A DNA stretch of 51,862 nucleotides. Source: Minisyncoccota bacterium. GTDB taxonomy: Bacteria; Patescibacteriota; Minisyncoccia; UBA6257; 02-FULL-45-10c. The stretch's first letter is position 1. Each line of letters begins with the position of its first letter. The notes beneath the pieces were generated by a model. It was not told the DNA's origin, did no database searches, and saw only the letters and a program-made list of their open reading frames with translations. Shown in pieces: positions 6,406 to 29,431 of the stretch. Made by a program: the position numbers and the translations under genes. Location: assembly GCA_028716745.1 (NCBI GenBank), contig JAQUPE010000001.1, forward strand, positions 94,203 through 146,064, in the 5' to 3' direction.

Positions 6406-7818
6406 ATGCGAACTTATATCGCCGACATAGTTAATAACGAAGGTAAAAAGGTGGAACTGACGGGCTGGGTGAATATCCGCCGCGACCACGGGAAAATTAT
6501 TTTTATCGATCTTAGGGATAAATCCGGCATGTGCCAGGTTGTTTTTATTTCCAAGCCTGCCGATGTATATGAAAAGGCGACAAAACTCCGTTCTGAGTGG
6601 GTAGTAAAAATTTCCGGCCAGGTTAATAAGAGGCCGGCCAATATGGTGAATCCGGATATTATTACCGGAGAGTATGAATTGTTGGCGGACGGGCTGGAAA
6701 TTATAAACGAAGCAAAAACTCCGCCTTTTGATTTGCAGACCGACGGATATGAAATCGGAGAAGACGTAAGGATGAAATATCGCTATTTGGATTTGCGCAG
6801 GCCAAGAATGAAGAGAATTTTGGAAAATCGTTTTAAAACAATAAAGTTTATGCGCGACTTTTTGGCGGATAAGGGCTTTACCGAAGTAGAAACTCCGGTT
6901 CTTGGAAAATCTACGCCTGAAGGAGCGCGTGATTATCTGGTGCCTTCAAGAGTTTATCCGGGGAATTTTTATGCGCTTCCGCAATCTCCTCAGCAATATA
7001 AGCAGCTTTTAATGGTTGCCGGTTTGGAAAAATATTTTCAAGTAGTTAAGTGTTTCAGAGATGAAGATACAAGAGGCGACAGGCAGCCGGAATTTACTCA
7101 ACTGGATATAGAAATGAGTTTTACTTCCGAAGAGGAAGTTTTGAGCCTGATTGAAGAATTATATTTGAGCTTAGTTAAAAAATTATATCCGGAGAAGAAA
7201 CTTAAACTTGATAAATACGGCAAGATTATCCGCATGCCTTATAAAGAGGCAATGGAAAAATATAATAGCGATAAGCCGGATATTCGCGACGACAAAAACG
7301 ATCCCAATGAATTAGCTTTCTTATTTGTGGTTGATTTTCCTATGTTCGAATGGAAGGAAACCGAAAAGAGATGGGACGCAGTCCATCATCCATTTACAAT
7401 GCCCAAAGTTGACGGTGTGGAAGATTTTAAAAATAAATTTAAAGCGGATCCGGCGGCTATCCAGGCCTTTCAATACGATTTTGTTTTAAATGGATATGAA
7501 ATTGCCGGCGGTTCGATTAGAATTCATGATCCGGCTTTATTACAATCGGTATTTGAAGCTATGGGCAATAAGCCCGCAGATGTTAAAGAGAAATTTGGCC
7601 ACATGCTGGAGGCTTTTGAATATGGCGTGCCTCCGCATGGCGGAATAGCTCCTGGCATAGACAGATTTGTGATGATTATGGAAAATGCCCCGAATATCAG
7701 GGAAGTTATTGCATTTCCGAAAACCGGAGATGGCAGAGATCTGATGATGGGCGCGCCAAGCGATGTCGATAAAAAACAGCTAGCCGAATTAAAATTAGAA
7801 ATTAAAAAGAAAAAATAA
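6406..7818 (+). CDS. aspS: Aspartyl-tRNA synthetase, bacterial type apparently lacking the GAD insertion
   Basis: ELTGWVNIRRDHGKIIFIDLRD, FRDEDTRGDRQPEFTQLDIEMSF, VVDFPMFEW, HHPFTMP, GIAPGIDRFVMIM. Confidence 0.95.
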   Translation: MRTYIADIVNNEGKKVELTGWVNIRRDHGKIIFIDLRDKSGMCQVVFISKPADVYEKATKLRSEWVVKISGQVNKRPANMVNPDIITGEYELLADGLEIINEAKTPPFDLQTDGYEIGEDVRMKYRYLDLRRPRMKRILENRFKTIKFMRDFLADKGFTEVETPVLGKSTPEGARDYLVPSRVYPGNFYALPQSPQQYKQLLMVAGLEKYFQVVKCFRDEDTRGDRQPEFTQLDIEMSFTSEEEVLSLIEELYLSLVKKLYPEKKLKLDKYGKIIRMPYKEAMEKYNSDKPDIRDDKNDPNELAFLFVVDFPMFEWKETEKRWDAVHHPFTMPKVDGVEDFKNKFKADPAAIQAFQYDFVLNGYEIAGGSIRIHDPALLQSVFEAMGNKPADVKEKFGHMLEAFEYGVPPHGGIAPGIDRFVMIMENAPNIREVIAFPKTGDGRDLMMGAPSDVDKKQLAELKLEIKKKK

Positions 7819-7819
7819 T

Positions 7820-8413
7820 ATGTTTAAAAAACTTAAAGAAGAAAGAACATTAGTAATGGTAAAGCCGGACGGAGTAAAAAGAGGATTGGTTGGAGAAATT
7901 GTAAAACGCATTGAACAGCGAGGGTTAAAATTAATCGCTCTTGAAATGTTTCAGGCCACAAAAGAAGATATAGAAAAGCATTATTCTACTTCTGAAGAAA
8001 ATTTGAAAAATATGGGCGGGAAGCTGGTATCAACTTGCGAGAAATATAATATCGATATGATAAAAGAGTTTGGAACTTCTGATCCGGTCAAATTAGGAGC
8101 GCTGGTCCATAGCTGGCTGGGAGAGTATTTAACTTCAGGCCCTATGGTAAAAATGGTTGTTCAGGGAATTCTTGCCGTGGAGATGGTGAGAAAATTGGCT
8201 GGAAACACGATGCCAGCTCAAGCAGAAATGGGAACAATTCGCGGAGATTTTTCGGTTGATTCTGGAATTATTGCTAATACACAGAGAAGGGCAGTTAGAA
8301 ATGTTGTTCATGCCTCAGGAAATGTTGCGGAAGCTGAATTTGAAATAGGCCTTTGGTTTAAATCGGATGAAATTCATAGTTATAAGAGAGCGGAGGAGGA
8401 GATAATGTTTTAA
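7820..8413 (+). CDS. ndk: Nucleoside diphosphate kinase, enlarged (197 aa)
   Basis: ERTLVMVKPDGVKRGLVGEIVKRIEQRGLKLIA; MGTIRGDFSVD; RNVVHASGN active-site His. Confidence 0.93.
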   Translation: MFKKLKEERTLVMVKPDGVKRGLVGEIVKRIEQRGLKLIALEMFQATKEDIEKHYSTSEENLKNMGGKLVSTCEKYNIDMIKEFGTSDPVKLGALVHSWLGEYLTSGPMVKMVVQGILAVEMVRKLAGNTMPAQAEMGTIRGDFSVDSGIIANTQRRAVRNVVHASGNVAEAEFEIGLWFKSDEIHSYKRAEEEIMF

Positions 8414-8495
8414 GGGGAAAAAGCGTTATAAAATCTATTGACTTCTATTCACTTTTAAGACGTTTCTTTTATTATTGCGATGTTATAATTAAATT

Positions 8496-8650
8496 GAAAT
8501 CCCGTCTCGGTTTCCTGATTAGTCTATTGTTAAAGGGAGAACAAATTGAATCAGGCCGTGGCTTGTTTCTGAGTTCACCCACCTAAAATTTAGCAGGGAC
8601 TTACGAGCGGGATTTTTGTTTCAAAAACACTTTAAGAAGGTGTTTTTTGT
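8496..8650 (+). ncRNA. Structured small RNA, candidate 6S RNA
   Basis: TATAAT at 8484-8489; closing stem AAATCCCG(8497)/CGGGATTT(8608) continuing CTCG/CGAG after one bulge; internal CCTGATT/AATCAGG stem; gttcacccacct tract; downstream terminator hairpin AAACAC..GTGTTTTTT; no ORF. Confidence 0.5.
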
Positions 8651-8688
8651 TTGAATCATAATAAAAATTTATGTATTCTTAATTATCA

Positions 8689-8759
8689 CGGACTGTATTA
8701 TAACGGTAGTATATGCCCTTGGGGTGGGCACGACCCGGGTTCAACTCCCGGCAGTCCGA
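8689..8759 (+). tRNA. tRNA-Pro(GGG)
   Basis: Acceptor CGGACTG/CAGTCCG, anticodon arm TGCCC-TTGGGGT-GGGCA (GGG), T arm CCGGG-TTCAACT-CCCGG, C1:G72/A73 typical of bacterial tRNA-Pro; CCA not encoded. Confidence 0.93.
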
Positions 8760-8769
8760 CAGATTAAAT

Positions 8770-8797
8770 AAAAAAACCGCTACTTAGCGGATTTTTT
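8770..8797. terminator. Bidirectional terminator hairpin overlapping rpmB stop
   Basis: AAAAAA-CCGC-tactta-GCGG-ATTTTTT. Confidence 0.6.
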
Positions 8798-8995
8798 AGT
8801 TTTAGAAGCTGCAGATTCTTTTAATCTTCTCTTGCATTTAACGCAAGCCTTAACTCTGCCGGATTTACCCGGAATTGTTGCCCATTGGAGATTGGCTTGT
8901 TTTCTGCTCCAGTTGGTAGGATTATAATTACCCCTAAGAAGCTTTCTGGTGCCTCCCATTATGTAGCTTTTTTTGCAAATCGCGCATTTCCTCAT
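8780..8995 (-). CDS. rpmB: 50S ribosomal protein L28
   Basis: MRKCAICKKSYIMGG...NLQWATIPGKSGRVKACVKCKRRLKE. Confidence 0.82.
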   Translation of the reverse strand: MRKCAICKKSYIMGGTRKLLRGNYNPTNWSRKQANLQWATIPGKSGRVKACVKCKRRLKESAASKTKKSAK

Positions 8996-9082
8996 AGTGT
9001 TTTTATACTATATGAAAGTATTTAAGAAATCAAGTCATAAAAGGTTTTTTATTTTTGAGCCGTGTTATATTAAACTATTGTT

Positions 9083-10816
9083 ATGAATGACACAGCCCAG
9101 CAAGTAAAGGAAAAACTGGATATAGTGGATTTTTTGAAGCAGTATATGGAAGTTAAGCCGGCGGGCAAAAACTTCAAAGCTAACTGCCCATTTCACAAGG
9201 AAAAAACTCCTTCTTTTATGATTTCTCCGGAAAGGCAGACTTGGCATTGTTTTGGCAGCTGCAGCGAGGGAGGTGACATCATCAAGTTTTTGATGAAATA
9301 TGAAAATCTGGAATTTTATGATGCCTTGAAAATATTGGCGGAAAAAGCAGGCATAGAAATAAGGCAGTCCGGCGACAAAGATTTCAGAGCTCACAATATC
9401 TTATATTCAATAATGGGTTCGGCTAAAGATTTTTTTAAGAATAGCTTAAAGTCTTCCGAAAAAGTAAAAAACTATTTAAAGGAAAGGGGATTAAAAAACG
9501 AAACAATAGAGGAGTTTGAATTGGGACTTGCGCCGGATGAGCCGGATTTGATGACCCGCCATCTTTTGGGCCTTGGATATAATATTACGGATTTAGAAAA
9601 AGCCGGATTAATTTTAAAAACAGAAAGAGGAACTTATTGGGACAGGTATCGCGGAAGGCTTATTTTTCCTATTTTTAATCATGTTGGAAAAGTAGTCGGA
9701 TTTGCGGGAAGAGTTTTACCTGGGGCTAGAGAGGATATTGCTAAATATGTAAATAGTCCCGAAACTCCGATTTATCAAAAATCCAGAATTTTATACGGTT
9801 TTCATAAAACAAAAAATGATGTTAGGGAAGAAAAAACGGCGGTCTTGGTTGAGGGTTATATGGATTTTTTGATGGCTTGGCAGGATGGGGTTAAAAATAT
9901 AGTTGCTGTTTCCGGTACGGCTTTGACGGCAGAACACCTAAAAGCATTAAGAAGATTAGCCGACGAGGTGGTTTTGGCGTTTGATGCTGATGAGGCCGGC
10001 CAAGCAGCTGCCGAAAGAAGCATAGATGCATCGGCAGCGTTTGATTTCACTGTTAAAGTATTGGTAATAGAAGACGATAAATTCAAAGATCCGGCAGATG
10101 TAGCAAAAGATAAGCCTGGATTTTTGAAAGAATTAGTTAAAAATGCCAAGCCGGCGATGGATTATTATTTTTATAAATATTTTACAAATAGATTCTTTAC
10201 GGAAAATCAGGGCATAAAAGAGAAAAAGCAAAATATCAGAGTTTTGCTTTCCAAGATTAAAAAAATATCCAGTCCGGTAGAACGCCAGCATTGGATTAAG
10301 GAGCTGGCAACACTGACTTATTTGGACGAAAAAGTTTTGGCCGAAGAAATGGGATCCATAAAAGAAGATGAGTCTCAAGAGGCTGAGGCTTCGACTGGAA
10401 CAGAAAATATTTCTAAAATAATTTTAAGAAAAGACTTAATAGCTCAGCGCCTTTTGGGAATTGCTTTAAATGGCACAAATGAAGAATTTAAAAAACAGCT
10501 CGAAAAAGAAATTGAATATTTGCCCGAGCATTACAGGGATATTTTAAGCGGTAATAAAAAAGCCGATTTGGAAGACATTATGGGTTTGATAGGACTGCGT
10601 TTCAGCATGGAAAATGCTGATATAGCGGAACAGGAATTAAAAAGAGAATTTCAGGCATTGCTTATAGAATTAAAGATGGAATATTTAAAAGAAGAACAAA
10701 AGAAATCCAGGGAGCTTATGCATAAGCTTGATGAGAAGGGTGATAAGGAGGCCTATGAAAAGGAAACTAAGCGGTTTGACAGTATTAGCCGGGAGATACA
10801 TAATCTTAAAAGATGA
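9083..10816 (+). CDS. dnaG: DNA primase
   Basis: CPFHKEKTPSFMISPERQTWHCFGSCSEGGDIIKFLM zinc finger; VEGYMDFLMAWQDG TOPRIM; AFDADEAGQAAAERS. Confidence 0.97.
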   Translation: MNDTAQQVKEKLDIVDFLKQYMEVKPAGKNFKANCPFHKEKTPSFMISPERQTWHCFGSCSEGGDIIKFLMKYENLEFYDALKILAEKAGIEIRQSGDKDFRAHNILYSIMGSAKDFFKNSLKSSEKVKNYLKERGLKNETIEEFELGLAPDEPDLMTRHLLGLGYNITDLEKAGLILKTERGTYWDRYRGRLIFPIFNHVGKVVGFAGRVLPGAREDIAKYVNSPETPIYQKSRILYGFHKTKNDVREEKTAVLVEGYMDFLMAWQDGVKNIVAVSGTALTAEHLKALRRLADEVVLAFDADEAGQAAAERSIDASAAFDFTVKVLVIEDDKFKDPADVAKDKPGFLKELVKNAKPAMDYYFYKYFTNRFFTENQGIKEKKQNIRVLLSKIKKISSPVERQHWIKELATLTYLDEKVLAEEMGSIKEDESQEAEASTGTENISKIILRKDLIAQRLLGIALNGTNEEFKKQLEKEIEYLPEHYRDILSGNKKADLEDIMGLIGLRFSMENADIAEQELKREFQALLIELKMEYLKEEQKKSRELMHKLDEKGDKEAYEKETKRFDSISREIHNLKR

Positions 10817-10913
10817 GTTTTTTGAAGGAAAATTGTAACTTTAGGCCGTTTTGTTCGTTGTATGTAACGATTGGCTATTTTGCCTCTTAATTTAATATCT
10901 ATTTGAAAATATT

Positions 10914-10931
10914 CCCCGCGAGGGGTTTTGT
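10914..10931 (+). terminator. Terminator-like hairpin between dnaG and rpoD
   Basis: CCCC-gcga-GGGG followed by TTTTG. Confidence 0.55.
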
Positions 10932-10946
10932 CGTTTATTGTCCTTT

Positions 10947-12101
10947 ATGAAAAAAAACAAAAAAAAGACTTTAAATAAGAAAACAAAAAAGGGAATTAAG
11001 AAAAATCCAAAAAAGATTTCGCCAAAAAGTCAGGTGGAAGATTTAGCTTTGGAAGATTTAATAAATCGCGGACGCGGACGCGGGTTTGTTACGGACACAG
11101 AGGTCCTGCATTTTTTCCCAAGAATCGAAGACAATGTTGATATGCTGGATGAAATTTATGGCCGTCTTGAACAATCAAACATAAAAGTTATTGAAACAAG
11201 CCAGCTTATAGAATTACCGAAAGAGGAAATAAGCGACAAAGAGCTGTTATCGGCTACTTCTATAGAAGGAGATCTTTCCGACTCTGTTCAGATGTATCTT
11301 AAAGAAATTGGAAGAACGCCATTATTAACTTCTAATGAAGAAAAAGAATTAGCTAAACGAGTAGAAAAAGGAGACAAAGAGGCTCGCAACAGATTTATAC
11401 AGGCAAACTTGAGGTTAGTGGTTTCTATTGCTAAGCGTTATGTAAATCGTTCTCCTAATTTGGGAATTTTGGATTTAGCCCAGGAAGGAAATATAGGATT
11501 ATCCCGCGCCGTTGATAAATTTGATTATCGGCGCGGTTTTAAATTTTCAACCTATGCAACTTGGTGGATTAGGCAGGCGATTACCAGGGCCTTGGCAGAT
11601 CAGTCCAGAACCATTAGAATACCTGTTCATATGGTGGAGACCATATCCAAGTACTCTCAATTTAAGCGGAAATTGACTCAAGAACTTGGCAGGGATCCCT
11701 TGCCGGAAGAGATTTCCGTAGAGATGGGAGTACCGGTAGAAAAGATCCATCATATTCAAAAAATATCGCAGGACGTTGTTTCGCTTGAAGCGCCTGTTGG
11801 AGACGAAGACGAGGATTCTACTATTTCGGAATTTATTCCGGATGAGAAAAATCTTAGCCCGTCCCAGACAGCTTCTCAGACATTGCTTAAAGAGCAAATC
11901 AGAAAAATAATGGTTGATTTAAGCGAAAGAGAGCAGAAAATTTTAAGAATGCGTTTCGGTCTGGAAGACGGCGTAACCCATACATTAGAGGAAGTTGGAA
12001 AGGAATTTGGCGTAACGCGCGAAAGAATCCGTCAAATTGAGGCTAAGGCGCTAGTTAGGATAAAATCACACGAAAGAGCATTTCTAATAGAAGGTTATTA
12101 A
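10947..12101 (+). CDS. rpoD: RNA polymerase sigma-70 factor
   Basis: [76 protein letters not shown]...[15 protein letters not shown] can also begin at TTG 10938. Confidence 0.97.
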
Positions 12102-12104
12102 ATT

Positions 12105-13340
12105 ATGACTAAGCTTTTATTAAAAACGTTATTTGTTTTTGCCGTAATAAATCCGGGCTCTTTTAACTTGGCCATAGCGGCAGATTCCCAGCAGGACGGA
12201 ACAGCTGTTTCTAAGCCTTTGCTTTTGCCAACCAACCCTCTTTATTTCTTGAAGGAATGGAAAAGAGAAACTCAAAAGGCTTTTACTTTCAATCAAAATA
12301 AAAAGATTGATTTGGATATTAATACGGTAAATGAAAAAATAATAGAACTTATAAAATTGGATAATATTAAATCCGAATTTGTTTCCGCTAAAATTACAAA
12401 GAAAATGGAAACTCTGGAGCAGGAAATAGTTGATTTAGGAGTGCAAATTCTTTCCAAAACAGAATCAGCGAGCCTTTTCCATGATCGTATTATAAAAATG
12501 TTCGGAGATTTTAATAATTATTTTAGAAACGAGCTTCGCGCGGCTGAAATTCTTTATAGAATTAAAAATCAGCTATCGGAAGACTACGGAAATAGGGTTG
12601 GGGGATTTGAAGAAAGATTTTTAATTAGTTTTGGCAACGAAACTGAAAATAGCGATTTTTTAAAAAACATTCCAAATGTTTTAAATCAGCTAATTCTTGG
12701 AAAAAGAGAAAAGATTAATTTTATAGATGAATTAAGAGAGGCTTTTGCCGAAGGCGATGTTAAAAATGTTTTGGGAATGACCAGACAGGAAATTTTAGAA
12801 AAAGCCAGCGAGGATGGAAATATCAATAAGCCTGATGCTCAAAATATGATTGATGGTGCCGAAAAAGCGGTTGAAAATTTAGCCGATAAAATGAAAGAGA
12901 GAGCGATGCCTAAAAGTAATTTGATTAAGGACTTATATTCTAAGGCATCGTTTAATTTAACTGAGGCAAAAAATATGCTTCAGATTTTTAATGATAAAGA
13001 AGCTTTTTCGCAGGCATCAATCGCTGAGGCAGCCGCCAAAACAGCTTTGGTTCAAATAGTAAAAATAAAGTCCGATGAAAGTTTTAGCTTTAAGCAGGAT
13101 ATTAAGGATATAAAAGGAGAATATGATGCCTTAATAAACACGGTTAATTCAAAAGATTTAAATGCAGAAAAAGCTCCTTATTTATTCGATATTTTGACTC
13201 AAAACGAGAAGTTATTGGTTAAATTATCAGACATTTTAAATAAGGGCTCTAAATTTGATTTTGACGTGATGGTAATGGCGGTAAGACAGACGAAATCTTT
13301 ATTCTTTAAAGCGGAACAAGAATTAGAAAACTTTAATTAA
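12105..13340 (+). CDS. Secreted protein with DUF5667-like N-terminal region
   Basis: Signal peptide, then PTNPLYFLKEWKRETQKAFTFNQNKKIDLDINTVNEKIIEL. Confidence 0.65.
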   Translation: MTKLLLKTLFVFAVINPGSFNLAIAADSQQDGTAVSKPLLLPTNPLYFLKEWKRETQKAFTFNQNKKIDLDINTVNEKIIELIKLDNIKSEFVSAKITKKMETLEQEIVDLGVQILSKTESASLFHDRIIKMFGDFNNYFRNELRAAEILYRIKNQLSEDYGNRVGGFEERFLISFGNETENSDFLKNIPNVLNQLILGKREKINFIDELREAFAEGDVKNVLGMTRQEILEKASEDGNINKPDAQNMIDGAEKAVENLADKMKERAMPKSNLIKDLYSKASFNLTEAKNMLQIFNDKEAFSQASIAEAAAKTALVQIVKIKSDESFSFKQDIKDIKGEYDALINTVNSKDLNAEKAPYLFDILTQNEKLLVKLSDILNKGSKFDFDVMVMAVRQTKSLFFKAEQELENFN

Positions 13341-21160: not shown

Positions 21161-21268
21161 TAGCCATTCTCCTTATGTTTTGGATTTTTTTGCTTGAAAA
21201 ATACTACCTATAATGTAAAGGATTTCTGTTTTTTGTCAATAATTTTTTATGTTATTATTTTAATAAAT

Positions 21269-22189
21269 ATGTCTTTAATAAATCGCTGGAAAATTTTAAC
21301 CTTAACATTTTTGGTTATAAGCGGCGTTGCGGTTGGCTGGATTATTTTTGGAACGTCTAAAAATAGTGCCTCCAATCCCTATCCGTTAATAGATATTTCA
21401 CGTAATTTCATTCCGCAGAACGATTTTATCGTCAATATTCAGCCGCTTCGTGAACAACTGCAAAAAATAGTCGAAGACAATGGGAAAGACAATATATCCA
21501 TTTATTTTGAATTTTTGAACACGGGCGCAAACATCCAAATCAATAATGAATTGCGTTTTTATCCGGCAAGTCTTATAAAAATACCGAGTGTTTTAGTGAC
21601 CATGAAAAAAATAGAAAATGGGGATTGGAATTTGAATAATGAACTGATTCTTTTTGAGACGGACAAAGATTCCCGTTATGGCGAACTTTATAAATATCCT
21701 GTCGGAAGCATATTTACGATAGAGAAATTACTTAAAATCCTCTTGATAGATTCCGACAATACCGCCCACAAAATTTTAAAAAGAAATCTTACGGATGAGG
21801 AATTTGAAAAATTGCAAAAAGGAATAGGATTAGACGAACTTTTTGATGAAAATTACAAAATTTCCGCCAAAGAATACTCCCGCCTTTTCAGGTCTCTTTA
21901 TACTTCCAGTTTTCTGAAAAGGGAATATTCCCAACAAATTTTATCATGGCTGACAGAAACTCCATTTAATAATTTTCTTGCTTCCGGATTGCCGAAGGAC
22001 ATTATTTTTTCTCATAAAATTGGAGAAGACAATAAAGGAAATAATTACCTGGATTCAGGAATAGTTTATTTGTTCAACCGCCCATACCTTCTTACAACAA
22101 TGATTAAAGAATGCAACAAAGAAAAAGCCGAAGAAATAATGAAAAATGTTTCTCGGGCGGCATACGATTACATAAAAAATTATGAATAA
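21269..22189 (+). CDS. Class A beta-lactamase-fold serine hydrolase, membrane anchored
   Basis: SxxK in YPASLIKIPSVL, SDN in IDSDNTAHKIL, KTG-like HKIGEDNKGNNYLDSGIVY; N-terminal TM. Start reassigned from 21194 to ATG 21269. Confidence 0.8.
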   Translation: MSLINRWKILTLTFLVISGVAVGWIIFGTSKNSASNPYPLIDISRNFIPQNDFIVNIQPLREQLQKIVEDNGKDNISIYFEFLNTGANIQINNELRFYPASLIKIPSVLVTMKKIENGDWNLNNELILFETDKDSRYGELYKYPVGSIFTIEKLLKILLIDSDNTAHKILKRNLTDEEFEKLQKGIGLDELFDENYKISAKEYSRLFRSLYTSSFLKREYSQQILSWLTETPFNNFLASGLPKDIIFSHKIGEDNKGNNYLDSGIVYLFNRPYLLTTMIKECNKEKAEEIMKNVSRAAYDYIKNYE

Positions 22190-23999
22190 AGAACCAAGGT
22201 GGCATTTTTTTATCAAAGTTTTAACGATTTATATAATTGTTGTCAGTAATTTATTTTTTGGATTTCCGGTTGATTACCTGATTCAGTCTTGGAACGAATC
22301 AAAGATAGTGGATAATTTGTATTGGGCGCTTAAAGACCCCAAAACCGATAGGGAAAGAGGAATTGTGCCGAAAGTGGTTAAAGAGATTTTTGCTGCCAAC
22401 GTGGCGATAGATAACAATATCAACACCACTGATACCTCGAACAACAGCACCTCGCCCGACGTGGTTTTTACGAGCGTTTCCAATGGTTACGCGTTTTACA
22501 GAGACAGTGCCGGTGATTGCAGATATAGCAAGACCATTGACGGTGGAGATACTTGGGGTGCTGGCGTCAGAGTGGATTCGGTGAATACATCGGATTGCCT
22601 AGCTGTCGCCGTCTGGTATGACCAATGGACTCCGGGTGATACTACCGGAACATATATTCATATTGCGACCATAGATAGCGGAGTTGATGATACTTATTAC
22701 ACGAGGTTGGATACTTCTAATGATTCTCTTTCAACAACAGTTTTGGGGACTACGCAATCCGGAACGTTGGCTGCTGGCACAAATCTGGTTTCTATCACAA
22801 AGGGCACCAATGGCTATCTTTATATGACGACTAACGACGCTTCGGACAGCTGGATTGTAAGATGTACAGGTTCTTGTACCACGGCTTCAAACTGGGCAGA
22901 AATAACCAGTCCATATACATTGACTAACGACTGGCCGCTTTTGATGCCGCTTGCCTCGGGAAATATAATGGTTATCCGGATGGAGCTTGCCGGCAACGAT
23001 TATGATTACAATATTTGGAACGGTTCGGTTTGGAGCGGTTGGACCACGATAGGCACAACGGCGGGGGAAAATACTACTTATGATGGCCATTTTGGTGCCA
23101 CGCTGGATAAAACAACGAACAATATCTATCTTGCTTATGTAACGGATAACAGTACTTTGGGAACAAACGATGATATCCGAACAGCGGTTTATTCCAGCGG
23201 TTCATGGACTTTAAAAACCGATGTTTTGACGAATGACACGAAAGGAATTACTAACGCAAAAATTTCTTTTGATCAGAATACGGGCAATATTTATGTTATT
23301 TACAGTGCTAGAACTACGGTAGGCACTTCTTCTACGGCCAATATCTATTGGAAAAAATCAACCGACGGAATGGCAAGCTGGGGAAGCGAAAATCAATTAA
23401 ATGACGATCCTGACAATATTTACGGCGGCGGAAATACAAACATTATGTCCGACAGTAGAATTTACGCGACCTGGAAGAGAGTTTCTTTAGATGATTTATA
23501 CGGAGATACAATTGTAAATTTTTCAGCCACAGTAAGTTGTAATACGGATATTTCTTCCACAAATTTTAATTCTTTAACAATAGATTCAATTAGTACAGCT
23601 TCTTCTAATGCCGTCACAACATCTTCTTGCACATATTCCGGAGGTTGTACTTTATATGTAAAGGATAGCGGAGACACTACTAGTCCGGGATTATATAAAT
23701 CAGCTTCTCCCACAGATTTAATTTTATCTTCAACCGCTACTTTGATTGCCGGAACGGAAGGCTATGGAATTCAGGCGAGCGTTTCGGGAGGTAGCGGCAG
23801 CGCTCTTACAGTAAGCGCTACTTATGATAAAAGCAGTAATAATGTCGGGGGATTAAGCTTAACCAATGCTACTCTGGCAAATTCCACAGGGTCTTATACC
23901 GATAGGGCAGTTACAGTTGTTCATAAGGCTGCGGTAAGTTATTTAACTACCGCCGGCAGCTACAGCGATACAATTACATACAGCTGTGTTGGTAACTAA
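22182..23999 (+). CDS. Large surface/secreted protein: BNR/sialidase-like repeats plus C-terminal pilin/SCPU-like domain
   Basis: N-terminal TM; repeated GDTWG, GSVWSGWT, STDGMASWGSEN motifs; C-terminal about 160 aa paralogous to 24108-24713. Confidence 0.7.
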   Translation: MNKEPRWHFFIKVLTIYIIVVSNLFFGFPVDYLIQSWNESKIVDNLYWALKDPKTDRERGIVPKVVKEIFAANVAIDNNINTTDTSNNSTSPDVVFTSVSNGYAFYRDSAGDCRYSKTIDGGDTWGAGVRVDSVNTSDCLAVAVWYDQWTPGDTTGTYIHIATIDSGVDDTYYTRLDTSNDSLSTTVLGTTQSGTLAAGTNLVSITKGTNGYLYMTTNDASDSWIVRCTGSCTTASNWAEITSPYTLTNDWPLLMPLASGNIMVIRMELAGNDYDYNIWNGSVWSGWTTIGTTAGENTTYDGHFGATLDKTTNNIYLAYVTDNSTLGTNDDIRTAVYSSGSWTLKTDVLTNDTKGITNAKISFDQNTGNIYVIYSARTTVGTSSTANIYWKKSTDGMASWGSENQLNDDPDNIYGGGNTNIMSDSRIYATWKRVSLDDLYGDTIVNFSATVSCNTDISSTNFNSLTIDSISTASSNAVTTSSCTYSGGCTLYVKDSGDTTSPGLYKSASPTDLILSSTATLIAGTEGYGIQASVSGGSGSALTVSATYDKSSNNVGGLSLTNATLANSTGSYTDRAVTVVHKAAVSYLTTAGSYSDTITYSCVGN

Positions 24000-24107
24000 T
24001 TTATAATTGAAATAAATTAAAGTTATTAACATAGCTATAATTAATTAAACAAGTTATAATACTAACATTATAAAAATTAAAAAGGTCCCAAGATTTAAAT
24101 AAAAAAT

Positions 24108-24713
24108 ATGTCAGCACAATTAGTTTTTTCTAATAAAAAATTAGCAGTCGGTTTAATCGCTATAGCAATTATCTTTGTCGGATATTTAGCTCTTGATATG
24201 GTAAGTGGTTCGGATGTTACCGTGAGCGCAACCGTATCTACCAGCGTCAGCTGCAATACAGATATAACAGAAACCGCGTTTGGAACATTATCAGTAAGCT
24301 CCATTACTACTGCGACCACCGATGCTTCAACGACAATGTCCTGCAACTATGCCGCCGGATGCACATTAACTATTCAAGACAGCGGAAGCGGAAGTAATCC
24401 AGGATTATGGAACTCGGCGAATTCGTATTTAATTGCTTCAGCGGATGCGACTCTTGCAGTCGGAGTTGAAGGATATGGAATTCAAGTTTCTGCTGCCCCA
24501 GCCGGATACGGAGACACATTAACTCTTTCTACTACCTATGATAAAACCGGAAATGTGGTTGGCGGACTTTTAAGAACTGCCACTACTTTGGCATCTACGG
24601 ATTCTCCAACAAGCGGAAGAACTGCCAAGGTTGTACATAAAGCATCTATTAGCGGTTTAACTACTGCCGGAACTTACGCGGACACTATTACTTACGGCTG
24701 TACCGGTAACTAA
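24108..24713 (+). CDS. Secreted/anchored beta-sandwich protein (pilin or spore-coat-U-like)
   Basis: N-terminal hydrophobic segment, VSATVSTSVSCNTDITETAFGTLSV..., C-terminal GLTTAGTYADTITYGCTGN. Confidence 0.65.
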   Translation: MSAQLVFSNKKLAVGLIAIAIIFVGYLALDMVSGSDVTVSATVSTSVSCNTDITETAFGTLSVSSITTATTDASTTMSCNYAAGCTLTIQDSGSGSNPGLWNSANSYLIASADATLAVGVEGYGIQVSAAPAGYGDTLTLSTTYDKTGNVVGGLLRTATTLASTDSPTSGRTAKVVHKASISGLTTAGTYADTITYGCTGN

Positions 24714-24750
24714 AATTAAAAAGGCAATTTAATTCCGCTTTTATAAAAAC

Positions 24751-25791
24751 ATGAGAAAATTGTTGTTATCTTTCATTATCGGATTTTTGGCACTGCCATT
24801 TTTTTCTCATGCAATTACCGTGGGACCGGTAAGAATGGAATACTCGGTTAATCCGGGAGATATCGTTAAAGGAGAAATGCTTTTAAAAAATGAAGGAGGC
24901 GGTTCAAGAATTTTTTATCCAAATTTAGAAAAGTTTTTTGAGGAAAACGGCCAAAAAGTTTTTTCCGGAGAGGAAAGCGAAATATCTAAATGGATAAAAA
25001 CGGCAAAATCTGTCGCTTTAAAACCGGACGAACAAAAAATAATTCCTTTTTCTATCGAAGTTCCAGCGGATGCTTCTCCCGGCGGACACTTTGCCGTAAT
25101 GTGGTGGGGTAATGTTGCTCCAAATTCCGAAAAAGCAGATCAAGTCGGAGTTAATACCAGAGCTGGAATTCTCGTATATCTGACCGTTTCCGGCAATACT
25201 ATAGAATCTGGAAATATAGGCGAAATAAGAACGAATTATCCTAAAAGCATAATAAACAAGCTTCCTGTCAATTTTGTAATTTCTTTTGAAAATAAAGGAA
25301 ATGTTATTTTAAAACCGTTTGGAGAACTTGTTATTAAAAATTTTTTTGGAGTTACCAAGGGTATTTTAAGGGTTAATGATAAGGGGCTTATTGTAATGCC
25401 CAATGACAAGAAGAATCTTGAGACTGAATGGAATTCTGATTTTGCTTTTGGGCCATACAAGGCCACGGCTAACTTGGTTTTGGGCAAAGATAATCAAAGA
25501 ATTGAAAAAAGTATTTGGGTTTATGTGTTTCCTACAAAAATAGTTATCGGCATAGTTTCTGTTATATCGCTGATAATTATGGCCATAATCATAAAAGTAA
25601 TCATCAAAATTATCTCTTTAATTAAAAGAAATAATAAAAAGAAAAAAGCGGCAAAAGCAGCGAAAAAAAAGGCCAAGAAAAGAAAAATTGCTAAGAAAAA
25701 TATTGTTCAGGAAATAAAGGTTCCGGAAATTTTAGAAATCAAAGAAGAACCGCAAAAATCCAATGAACAAGAAGAAAATCAACAGCAATAA
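24751..25791 (+). CDS. Secreted, membrane-anchored DUF916/chaperone-like protein
   Basis: Signal peptide; VGPVRMEYSVNPGDIVKGEMLLKNEG, ISKWIKTAKSVALKPDEQKIIPFSIEVPADASPGGHFAVMWWGN; C-terminal TM and Lys-rich tail. Confidence 0.7.
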   Translation: MRKLLLSFIIGFLALPFFSHAITVGPVRMEYSVNPGDIVKGEMLLKNEGGGSRIFYPNLEKFFEENGQKVFSGEESEISKWIKTAKSVALKPDEQKIIPFSIEVPADASPGGHFAVMWWGNVAPNSEKADQVGVNTRAGILVYLTVSGNTIESGNIGEIRTNYPKSIINKLPVNFVISFENKGNVILKPFGELVIKNFFGVTKGILRVNDKGLIVMPNDKKNLETEWNSDFAFGPYKATANLVLGKDNQRIEKSIWVYVFPTKIVIGIVSVISLIIMAIIIKVIIKIISLIKRNNKKKKAAKAAKKKAKKRKIAKKNIVQEIKVPEILEIKEEPQKSNEQEENQQQ

Positions 25792-26779
25792 AAATCTATT
25801 TTTTCTGGGATTCATTTTTTTTCTGATATTTGCAGTATCTTCTGCGGAAAAAACCTACTCAAATTCAGTCGATGTAACTGCAACGGTTTCTTCAACCACC
25901 ACCCCTCCTGTTCTTTATTGCGGAGATAATTCTTGTAATAACAATGAAACTTGCAGCAGCTGCCCAAGAGATTGCGGAGCTTGTCCAACGGGCGGAAGCG
26001 GGGGAAGCAATAGCGATAATTCTCCCTCCGTATCAACGCCACCGCCGGTTATTATCACTCAAGCTACTTTTAAAGGAAGGGCATATCCCAGCAGTGACGT
26101 TAAGCTTGTTAAGGACGGCGTAGCGGTGGCATCAACAAAATCTGGACCGGATGCTAATTTTGAAATTTCCGTTTCAGGCCTTTCCTCCGGATCCTATATG
26201 TTCGGACTCTGGGCAGAGGATCAAAAAGGAAATCGTTCACTCACAAATACTTTTAATGTATCCGTTACGGCGGGTATTTCCACCACAGTAAGCGGAATTT
26301 TTCTCCCCCCAACAATAAATTTGGATAAATCCGAAGTTAAGAGAGGGGATATCTTGAATATTTTTGGGCAGACTGTTCCGGAAGCGGAGGTAGCGCTGTT
26401 TATTAATTCAAACGAAGAGCTTGTTAAAAGAACCACCGCTGATGATTCCGGATCGTGGCTATATAAATTTGATACTTCGGAAATAGAGCAGGGAAGCCAT
26501 ACCACAAAGGCTAGGTCGGCAAAAAATGGAAATTTTTCCATGAATTCTCAAACAATATCTTTCAAGGTTGGATCAAAAAGCGTTTTAGAAGAAGTTGCCA
26601 AGAAACCGGGAACGGAAAAAATAGATTTAAATGGCGATCAAAGGGTAAATATAGTGGAGTTTTCCATAGCAGCCTATTGGTATAAAAGAACCTCTCCGCC
26701 TGCTTCCGTAGATTTAAATAATGACGGCAAAGTTAACCTGGTGGATTTCAGCATAATGGCGTATTATTGGACGGGTTAA
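25763..26779 (+). CDS. Secreted protein with Cys-rich motif, Ig-like domains and C-terminal type I dockerin-like repeats
   Basis: CGDNSCNNNETCSSCPRDCGAC; DLNGDQRVNIVEFSIAAYWY and DLNNDGKVNLVDFSIMAYYW duplicated Ca-binding repeats at C-terminus. Confidence 0.82.
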   Translation: MNKKKINSNKNLFFLGFIFFLIFAVSSAEKTYSNSVDVTATVSSTTTPPVLYCGDNSCNNNETCSSCPRDCGACPTGGSGGSNSDNSPSVSTPPPVIITQATFKGRAYPSSDVKLVKDGVAVASTKSGPDANFEISVSGLSSGSYMFGLWAEDQKGNRSLTNTFNVSVTAGISTTVSGIFLPPTINLDKSEVKRGDILNIFGQTVPEAEVALFINSNEELVKRTTADDSGSWLYKFDTSEIEQGSHTTKARSAKNGNFSMNSQTISFKVGSKSVLEEVAKKPGTEKIDLNGDQRVNIVEFSIAAYWYKRTSPPASVDLNNDGKVNLVDFSIMAYYWTG

Positions 26780-26788
26780 AATAAAAAT

Positions 26789-27664
26789 ATGAATAATATT
26801 AAAAAAACATTTATTTCTCTTTCTGTTTTATTGGCGGCTTCCATATGTCTGGCAGCGGAAATTAAAATATCCGGAAATTCGGAAATTAAAATAGGCAGCC
26901 AATCCGAGATCAATATTAATATTGATACGCAATATCAAAATATTAATGCCGTAGAGGGAAATATAATATTTCCCGATTCTGTTTTAAAATTAAAAGAAAT
27001 AAAAACCGGCTTGTCCATTATTAATTTTTGGGTAGAACAGCCAAAAATATCCTCTTCGGGAAATATCCGTTTTTCGGGGATAATTCCAGGCGGATATCAG
27101 GGAAATGGGAGCAATATATTGTCTTTGATTTTTGAAGCAAAAGAATTGGGAATGGCCTCCTCTGTTCAGCGAATAATAAAAATTGAAAATTTAAAAATAT
27201 TGCTTAATGACGGCAAGGGAACTTTAGCCGAGGCAAAAACAAATGACTTCAGATTTTCTATATCAAAAAATACGACTGATATCCAAAATACCGACTTAGA
27301 AAATAATTTGCATAAAGATATTGCCTCTCCGGAATTATTCGAACCAGTATTATCTAAAAATCAAAATATTTTTGCCGGAAAATATTTTTTGGTCTTCACA
27401 ACTCAAGATAAGGGGTCGGGGATAGATCATTATGAGGTTAAGGAGGGCGAGGAAGATTTTGTTGTTGCAGAAACCCCTTACTTAATAAAAGATCAAAATT
27501 TAAAAAGCAGAATATTTGTAAAGGCAATTGATAAAGAGGGCAATGAAATAACCGTTGAATATTCTCCTAAAAAACTTTGGTATTTGAACTATTGGTTATA
27601 TATTATAATAATCATAGGCATAGTCGGAGCTGTTTTTATAACAAAAAAATCGCATAAAAAATAA
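26789..27664 (+). CDS. Cohesin-like domain protein with C-terminal TM anchor
   Basis: IKIGSQSEININIDTQYQNINAVEGNIIFPDSVLKLKEI...IRFSGIIPGGYQGNGSNILSLIFEAK...LLNDGKG; TM LYIIIIIGIVGAVFI then KKSHKK. Confidence 0.75.
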   Translation: MNNIKKTFISLSVLLAASICLAAEIKISGNSEIKIGSQSEININIDTQYQNINAVEGNIIFPDSVLKLKEIKTGLSIINFWVEQPKISSSGNIRFSGIIPGGYQGNGSNILSLIFEAKELGMASSVQRIIKIENLKILLNDGKGTLAEAKTNDFRFSISKNTTDIQNTDLENNLHKDIASPELFEPVLSKNQNIFAGKYFLVFTTQDKGSGIDHYEVKEGEEDFVVAETPYLIKDQNLKSRIFVKAIDKEGNEITVEYSPKKLWYLNYWLYIIIIIGIVGAVFITKKSHKK

Positions 27665-29431
27665 ATGAGAAAGTCTTTCTATACATTTTTAGCCGTCTTT
27701 TTATTTTCATTTTTTGCTGTTTTTGCCGGACAAGCCAGCGCGAGCAGCGCATCTCTTTATTTTTCTCCTTCGGCAAAGACCGTTAGCGTAGGCGATTCTT
27801 TTTCTATTGCCGTATATGTTTCAAGCCTTGACCAACCGATAAACGCCGCATCAGGAGTTATTTCTTTTCCGCAAGACAAGGTTCAGGTCTCTTCAATATC
27901 AAAAACAGGTTCTATCTTTTCTTTGTGGGCGCAAGAACCAGTCTTCTCGAATGATGACGGCACGATAAATTTTGAAGGAGTTGTTTTAAATCCCGGTTTT
28001 TCCGGTTCGGCCGGAAAAGTCATAACGATTAATTTTAAGGCAAAAACCATAGGCAGCGATTCAATTTCTTTTTCTTCTGGTTCTGTTTTAGCTAATGACG
28101 GAAAAGGAACTAATATATTGGAAGATTTGGGAAGTGCCGATTTAAATATTAAAGCCATTATTTCGGCTCCGGCAACGGAAGAAACGCTAACTACTCAGCA
28201 AGAAGAACAGGTAATCATATCAACCGCCGAATCTATTCCTTCTGCGCCAATAATTAGTTCTTCTACTCATCCGGATCAAAACAAATGGTATAGCCAAAAT
28301 AACCCCGTATTTTCATGGGAAATCACCTCCGATATTACATCTGTAAAAATAAAATATGATAAAAAACCATCTTCTTTGCCGACAATTTTATATAAAACCC
28401 CCATTTCAGAGAAACAGCTTAATGATATTTCGGACGGCATTTGGTATTTTCACGCTCAGCTTTGCAATAAATACGGCTGTGGAAAAACTTCTCATTACAG
28501 ATTTAAAATAGATACCGAAAAACCAAAACCGCTTTTAATAGAGTTTATTGACGGATTGGAAACAACAAATCCAAAACCTACCGTAGTTTTTAATACCACG
28601 GATGACTTATCGGGAATTGATTATTATCAAATTAAAATAGGAGAAGGCAGCCCATTTATCCTTTCCGCAAGTTCAACAGTAAAAAGCAATCCTTTTACAT
28701 TGCCGCTGCAAGACTTGGGACAGCATATAATATTAGTTGAAGCCTTTGATGAGGCGGGTAATTATATTTCTGATTATAAAAAATTTATAATAGAGCCATT
28801 GTCTTCTCCGATAATTACGGAATATCCAAAAAACTTGAAAAGCGGCGAGGCACTGATAATTAAAGGAACCTCTTCTTATCCAGAGGCGCAAATTAACGTC
28901 TGGCTTTTAAAAGATAAAACTGAAGTAGTAAAACAATCAATTACCAGCGATCAAAACGGCAATTTTATTTTTACACCGGAAAAAAATCTTGAACCAGGAT
29001 TATATAAGCTTGTGGCTACAGTCAGCAATGAACGTGGCGAAAAAAGCTCTTTATCCGACGAGATACTTATTAATGTAGAACAATCAGCCATTATAAGACT
29101 GGGGTCCATTACTGTAAAATCCCTCGCTATAACAGCGGCGGTAATTCTATTTATTATTTTCGTAATTTTCATAATTTGCTATAGCTATCGCAAAATCAGC
29201 GGCCTTAAAAGAAAATTTAAGAAAAAAATTAATGACACCGAAGAATCTATTCATGAAGAATTCGGATCTCTTAAAGAAGAATTGATGGATCAAATTAAAG
29301 TATTGGAAAAAGTTAAAAAATGCCAAGAAATTTCAGAAGAAGAAGGAATTATATTGAAGCGCCTTAAAAAGAATATCGACGATGTTGAAAAGAGAATCAA
29401 GAAAGAAATAATTGAAATTGAAGATAAATAA
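27665..29431 (+). CDS. Cohesin-like domain + Ig-like domains + TM + cytoplasmic coiled coil
   Basis: KTVSVGDSFSIAVYVSSLDQPINAASGVISFPQDKVQV...INFEGVVLNPGFSGSAGKVITINFKAK...LANDGKG; TM AVILFIIFVIFIICY; charged coiled-coil tail. Confidence 0.8.
   Translation: MRKSFYTFLAVFLFSFFAVFAGQASASSASLYFSPSAKTVSVGDSFSIAVYVSSLDQPINAASGVISFPQDKVQVSSISKTGSIFSLWAQEPVFSNDDGTINFEGVVLNPGFSGSAGKVITINFKAKTIGSDSISFSSGSVLANDGKGTNILEDLGSADLNIKAIISAPATEETLTTQQEEQVIISTAESIPSAPIISSSTHPDQNKWYSQNNPVFSWEITSDITSVKIKYDKKPSSLPTILYKTPISEKQLNDISDGIWYFHAQLCNKYGCGKTSHYRFKIDTEKPKPLLIEFIDGLETTNPKPTVVFNTTDDLSGIDYYQIKIGEGSPFILSASSTVKSNPFTLPLQDLGQHIILVEAFDEAGNYISDYKKFIIEPLSSPIITEYPKNLKSGEALIIKGTSSYPEAQINVWLLKDKTEVVKQSITSDQNGNFIFTPEKNLEPGLYKLVATVSNERGEKSSLSDEILINVEQSAIIRLGSITVKSLAITAAVILFIIFVIFIICYSYRKISGLKRKFKKKINDTEESIHEEFGSLKEELMDQIKVLEKVKKCQEISEEEGIILKRLKKNIDDVEKRIKKEIIEIEDK

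Follow-up and report, generated by a model that had tools for sequence, protein, structure and literature searches.

How do Patescibacteria hold on to their hosts? A block of six genes from one of these bacteria bears on this open question. It occupies positions 22182-29431 of the window, a 51,862-nucleotide stretch of contig 1 (JAQUPE010000001.1, positions 94,203 to 146,064) in a 660,737-bp, 98% complete genome of a Minisyncoccota bacterium, a member of the Patescibacteria (candidate phyla radiation, CPR) that is probably host-dependent. An original prediction described here a compact Ca-dependent surface assembly, and the six co-directional open reading frames (ORFs) that it delimited, P1 to P6, are present exactly as drawn, all on the + strand. 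P4-P6 comprise a dockerin protein and two cohesin proteins whose gene order recurs across the phylum, and P1-P3 resemble the WxL clusters of Firmicutes. We somewhat favour reading the block as a surface-adhesion operon of two coupled parts, an adhesive fibre (P1-P3) and a lock (P4-P6).

P4 (25763-26779, 338 aa), a secreted protein, is composed of a Cys-rich segment, two bacterial immunoglobulin (Ig)-like domains and a C-terminal dockerin module (26606-26776) with repeats at 26624-26683 and 26711-26770. The whole protein matches PF00404 above cut-off (E=1.7e-5), the 57-aa module alone reaches 4e-7, and the Ca-ligand pattern is present in both repeats, in line with the two Ca-binding repeats first proposed. 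Across 34 homologous modules, Ca ligands and a DFSIxxYYW-type motif are kept in both repeats; all 34 match PF00404, and the family profile retrieves cellulosomal dockerins from the PDB (2y3n at 4e-9). Judged by these profiles, the P4 C-terminus is a genuine type I dockerin. A dual binding mode is known from clostridia, and the near-identical P4 repeats would permit one of this type.

The next two genes encode the cohesins. P5 (coh1; 26789-27664, 291 aa) consists of a signal peptide, a cohesin domain (26849-27277), an Ig-like stalk and a C-terminal transmembrane (TM) segment (27584-27640). P6 (coh2; 27665-29431, 588 aa) has a signal peptide, a cohesin domain (27725-28165), Ig-like stalk domains, a TM segment (29123-29179) and a coiled-coil-like tail. 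By simple hydropathy, each of P1-P6 starts with a signal peptide or an N-terminal anchor, and P3, P5 and P6 have a single C-terminal TM segment (as had been predicted for both cohesin proteins), whereas P4 has none. Pfam PF00963 calls neither P5 nor P6 singly and finds no other match in their genome, so the cohesins had to be reached through a family profile. PF00963 matches 29 of the 48 family members (best 7e-11), and the top PDB match of the profile is a cellulosome cohesin (3e-5). The AlphaFold model of the P5 N-domain has nine main strands that follow the cohesin order, and its first 17 Foldseek matches are all cohesins (best 6kgc_A, 9.6e-10). The N-domains, tested as generic Ig or carbohydrate-binding-module folds, are cohesins instead, by family profile, PDB and Foldseek alike, as originally proposed.

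Two residues are invariant in the cohesin family, an Asn at position 33 on the third main strand and a Trp at position 61 on the fifth. In known cohesins these strands are part of the dockerin-binding sheet 8-3-6-5, and our reading of the model places both residues within it. Loci from Goldiibacteriota and Desantisbacteria (L052-L056) were set aside; their similarity to P6 is confined to its repeated Ig-like stalk and does not reach the cohesin. Named relatives of P6 come mostly from Parcubacteria, Magasanikbacteria, Nealsonbacteria, Portnoybacteria and other Patescibacteria metagenome-assembled genomes.

Many coh2 proteins from different genomes keep the cytoplasmic tail of P6 (29180-29428; ~80 aa, coiled-coil-like), through which the surface lock may be connected to a partner in the cytoplasm. 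Tandem coh2-type arrays follow one dockerin gene, or coh1 at a contig start, at eight loci (L036, L038, L042, L044, L045, L047, L048 and L049), which suggests several display positions or partner specificities.

Does the dockerin belong with these cohesins? A sample of 145 Patescibacteria genomes from across the phylum has the cohesin family in 55, the dockerin family in 43 and both in 38 (hypergeometric p 2e-16, ignoring shared ancestry), and the matches come from many family-level groups. A cohesin gene lies directly downstream on the same strand, within 1.5 kb, at 43 of 87 dockerin sites; at none of the 87 is there a cohesin on the opposite strand within that distance. Recurring in 31 of the 145 genomes, this adjacency is not due to chance, and the gene order is strongly conserved where the original prediction had called for a synteny check. 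Within the block, spacing is equally tight: the P3 and P4 genes overlap by 29 bp, P4 and P5 are separated by 9 bp, and P6 starts directly after the P5 stop. That these are unrelated beta-sandwich surface genes, neighbours by accident and without functional interaction, draws on nothing more than the usual caution over adjacency; set against the directed adjacency and co-occurrence across the phylum and the overlapping or near-zero gene spacing, it is hardly credible.

P4 and P5 share a reading frame, so that read-through of the P4 stop yields a natural dockerin-cohesin fusion. Modelled with paired rows from nine relatives that are likewise in frame, this fusion reached a pLDDT of 91 and a pTM of 0.84, with both domains at ~95 and the linker at ~61. 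By our estimate, a freely floating dockerin would leave the 143-residue cohesin alone to limit pTM to ~0.65, and 0.84 would be hard to reach unless the two domains were mutually placed; the model is nonetheless an uncontrolled single-chain fusion with ~10 paired rows, in which proximity favours contact and the interface is unseen. The earlier proposal that membrane cohesins dock P4 thereby gains a mutual placement of the domains. Binding of the P4 dockerin by P5 and P6, putatively Ca-dependent, appears likely.

Cellulosomes use these same dockerin and cohesin families, which raises the alternative of a minimal cellulosome or a complex degrading host polysaccharides, comparable to the expressed cohesin/dockerin set of Ca. 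Shapirobacterales, read as a cellulosome (PMC9123182). No glycoside hydrolase domain occurs in any of P1-P6. Ten dockerin proteins, P4 among them, were scanned and carry Ig, fn3, TIG and MG2-like domains but none of carbohydrate-active enzymes. A cellulosome is unlikely because these proteins carry no enzyme domains; one cohesin domain per ORF is the rule throughout the collected family, each borne here by a membrane protein, and the locus holds no multi-cohesin scaffoldin. We therefore reject this alternative as extremely improbable, which accords with the original view that the locus was not an obvious cellulosome, and the survey speaks against interpreting transcripts of CPR cohesins and dockerins as cellulosomes (PMC9123182).

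The lock shares its families (PF00963, PF00404), its two-repeat Ca-type C-terminal dockerin and a cohesin borne by a surface-anchored protein with type I cellulosome modules and non-cellulosomal pairs. It differs from known cohesin-dockerin systems in carrying one cohesin per TM-anchored protein, with neither enzymes nor a scaffoldin of several cohesins, in having dockerin and cohesin genes side by side in dockerin-to-cohesin order, and in its own motifs, DFSIxxYYW in the dockerin and SIxxxWVxxP in the cohesin.

What does the lock hold? Two architectures recur. In type A (for example L037, L042, L047, L049, L058, L059, L062, L063 and L072), pilin-like genes and a WxLIP-like gene precede a short dockerin protein, coh1 and one to several coh2 genes. 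In type B, a large dockerin-ended surface protein is followed by one or more cohesins, as at L065, L066, L071 and a second locus of the same genome (L057; G000:C6:28000-40979), where a 1241-aa TIG-repeat/fn3 protein with a dockerin precedes a coh2-type protein (7512-12978). Because both types occur, the dockerin-cohesin lock appears modular, serving both clusters of the P1-P3 type and large proteins that stand alone, and the phylum-wide gene order suggests a general means of holding adhesive proteins on the Patescibacteria surface.

Taken further, the lock could be a general surface anchoring in place of sortase, tethering any dockerin protein, with P1-P3 a separate adhesin cluster that merely lies next to it. 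The second locus, which has no P1-P3, is what this alternative would lead one to expect, as are the very large dockerin-ended proteins ahead of a cohesin in relatives (L066, L067, L071), the lack of a sortase (PF04203) in the genome and the up to 12 dockerin sites of some surveyed genomes. It accounts less well for the overlap of the P3 and P4 genes, and for the presence, at about half of the best dockerin sites (10 of 21), of a WxLIP-like gene no more than 4 kb ahead of the same short type of dockerin protein. We regard a wholly separate P1-P3 cluster as fairly unlikely.

At L067 (G004:C1, 3-6674), both cohesins follow a 2,223-aa protein that bears 13 macroglobulin-type (MG2) domains and, at its end, the same dockerin. 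Three genomes (G129, G130 and G156) carry 6-12 dockerin sites each, on clusters of ~450-950 aa proteins, possibly a larger dockerin-displayed repertoire. Near the second locus of our genome, L057 3283-4560 (-) encodes a fusion of a lectin-like Laminin_G_3 domain with an N-terminus like that of type IV pilins (N_methyl).

Which structure would the upstream half form? P3 (24751-25791, 346 aa) comprises two Ig-like domains and a C-terminal TM segment (25537-25593) followed by a Lys-rich cytoplasmic tail. Alone, it falls under the Pfam WxLIP cut-off; in its family, PF06030 (WxLIP_PGBD) is matched by all 20 members and PF11797 by 2, and the profile aligns to EfmWxLIP1 at 5e-7 over nearly the whole ectodomain. 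At the level of sequence, P3 is a WxLIP relative, in keeping with the DUF916-like assignment made earlier. P1 (22182-23999, 605 aa) is a secreted large subunit with BNR/sialidase-like repeats (approx. 23181-23411; BNR_2 at 2.9e-6, just under cut-off) and a C-terminal pilin-like domain (23502-23996). This domain is 52% identical to P2, bearing out the predicted sharing of a C-terminal domain. P2 (24108-24713, 201 aa), the small pilin-like subunit, runs from a signal/TM segment through an extension to a beta-sandwich. The large and small subunits are paired in eight of nine genomes with the family, our own included.

In the P2 model (pLDDT 89), the ~21 residues at the N-terminus are unstructured. 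The extension SDVTVSATVSTSVS (24210-24251), a candidate donor strand modelled mostly at low confidence, shows strictly alternating hydrophobic residues (shuffle p=0.001). P1 has no such extension ahead of its pilin-like domain, and across the family the hydrophobic/polar alternation has a mean contrast of 3.8 in small subunits vs 1.3 in large ones (Mann-Whitney p=0.001, n=10 and 6). By analogy, alternation in the small but not the large subunits would be expected of rod pilins as opposed to tip adhesins. CsuA/B (probability 0.91), CsuE, FimG, PapA and FimA recur among the Foldseek matches of P2, none significant by E-value, and SCPU is touched weakly by three members of the shared-domain family, below cut-off. 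The pilin/SCPU-like label given to P2 is consistent with folds and a profile that all stay sub-significant, and the upstream half as a whole had been under-called: its DUF916-like and pilin-like members were named, but not that the layout is WxL-cluster-like and the small subunit of donor-strand type.

The WxL cluster of Firmicutes contains a large WxL protein, a small WxL protein and a WxLIP (DUF916+DUF3324) (PMC10599100). Here, P1 is large with an N-terminal adhesive part, P2 carries the same C-terminal domain and P3 is a membrane-anchored WxLIP homologue; the block differs in that dockerin and cohesin genes come after and that the P1/P2 shared domain is not WxL by Pfam. The three-gene layout and the homology of P3 would equally suit a true WxL-type cluster, in which P1 and P2 bind peptidoglycan, unpolymerised, through their shared domain and P3 stabilises them. 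No match to a Pfam WxL family among the 16 members of the shared-domain family, no WxL structure in the best fold matches of P2, and a donor-strand-like extension conserved in the small subunit only, make this improbable.

Under the two-part reading, P1-P3 would assemble as a WxL-cluster-like adhesive fibre. P3, membrane-anchored and WxLIP/chaperone-like, would hold the incomplete beta-sandwich of the pilin-type subunits; P2 subunits would chain by inserting the alternating N-terminal extension into the next subunit, and P1, with its BNR adhesive domain and a pilin domain but no extension, would cap the fibre as tip adhesin. P4-P6 would form a Ca-type cohesin-dockerin lock, in which P5 and P6, as membrane cohesins, capture secreted P4 via its dockerin. 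The Ig-domain arm of P4 would therefore be displayed, or tethered, at the surface beside the fibre, perhaps touching it. We hold a donor-strand fibre built from P1-P3 to be an evenly balanced proposition and a physical link between the two parts a tentative one. Attachment to host cells is plausible from the Patescibacteria lifestyle, and we give it about an even chance.

Beyond the limits of the fusion model, several observations weigh against this reading. A same-genus relative, like the second locus of our genome, has dockerin and cohesin without P1 and P2. WxLIP-like genes occur in 78 of the 145 genomes, more than cohesins do. The matches behind the pilin fold of P2 are sub-significant (best E of 0.03 to 0.05 in Foldseek, 0.005 for SCPU), and no WxL domain appears in the best 50 Foldseek matches of the P2 model. 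The boldest form, an usher-less, sortase-less donor-strand pilus with a membrane WxLIP-type chaperone, no outer membrane, a cohesin-dockerin link to the cell and a coiled-coil cytoplasmic output, is unlikely in full.

Archaic chaperone-usher pili (CsuA/B, CsuE; SCPU PF05229) share with P1-P3 the pilin-fold hints, an Ig-like partner (P3), an N-terminal extension on the rod-type subunit only and a two-part tip-like subunit. They differ in that here no usher (PF00577) was found in the genome, no outer membrane is expected, the matches are sub-significant and the place of the Ig-like partner is taken by a TM-anchored WxLIP relative. The CPR Pam pilus, a family already curated in NCBIfam, offers its pilin C domain NF058581; weak matches to it (2e-5 to 1e-3) come from P2 and roughly half its relatives (eight P1/P2-family members, all below cut-off). 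The match stands at 21 bits against a curated cut-off of 55, and PamT (NF058579) is unmatched in the genome; NF058580 was dropped after proving to be an unrelated lipase family. The archaeal thread (PMC9715654) is a donor-strand filament for which no usher has been identified, borne by a cell that lacks an outer membrane. It has no homology to the locus as far as tested and no cohesin or dockerin, and by analogy makes the proposed usher-less mechanism possible.

In the cultivated epibiont of PMC10633639, the dockerin protein SEML1_0315 was scored essential and read as possibly glycan-targeting. The survey suggests another role for dockerin proteins, many of which would be held by a cohesin from the adjacent gene, and this role is directly testable in that genetically tractable epibiont. 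P1-P3 are in turn a candidate WxLIP-based fibre outside Firmicutes. Neither the dockerin-cohesin synteny nor the combined operon was found described in the open-licence papers searched, among which the combination P1-P6 appears to be undescribed; CPR dockerins or cohesins receive a passing mention in two of them (PMC10633639, PMC9123182).

A scan for promoters and terminators gave counts at chance level. Upstream, at 21194-22189 (+), lies a gene for a class A beta-lactamase-fold protein (PF13354, 1.1e-35) with an N-terminal membrane anchor; we make no claim of resistance because it falls far under the curated beta-lactamase cut-offs. The gene overlaps the start of P1 by 8 bp and is possibly part of the same operon. 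Directly downstream of the block lie an M50 protease gene and the rpsL-rpsG-fusA-tuf cluster.

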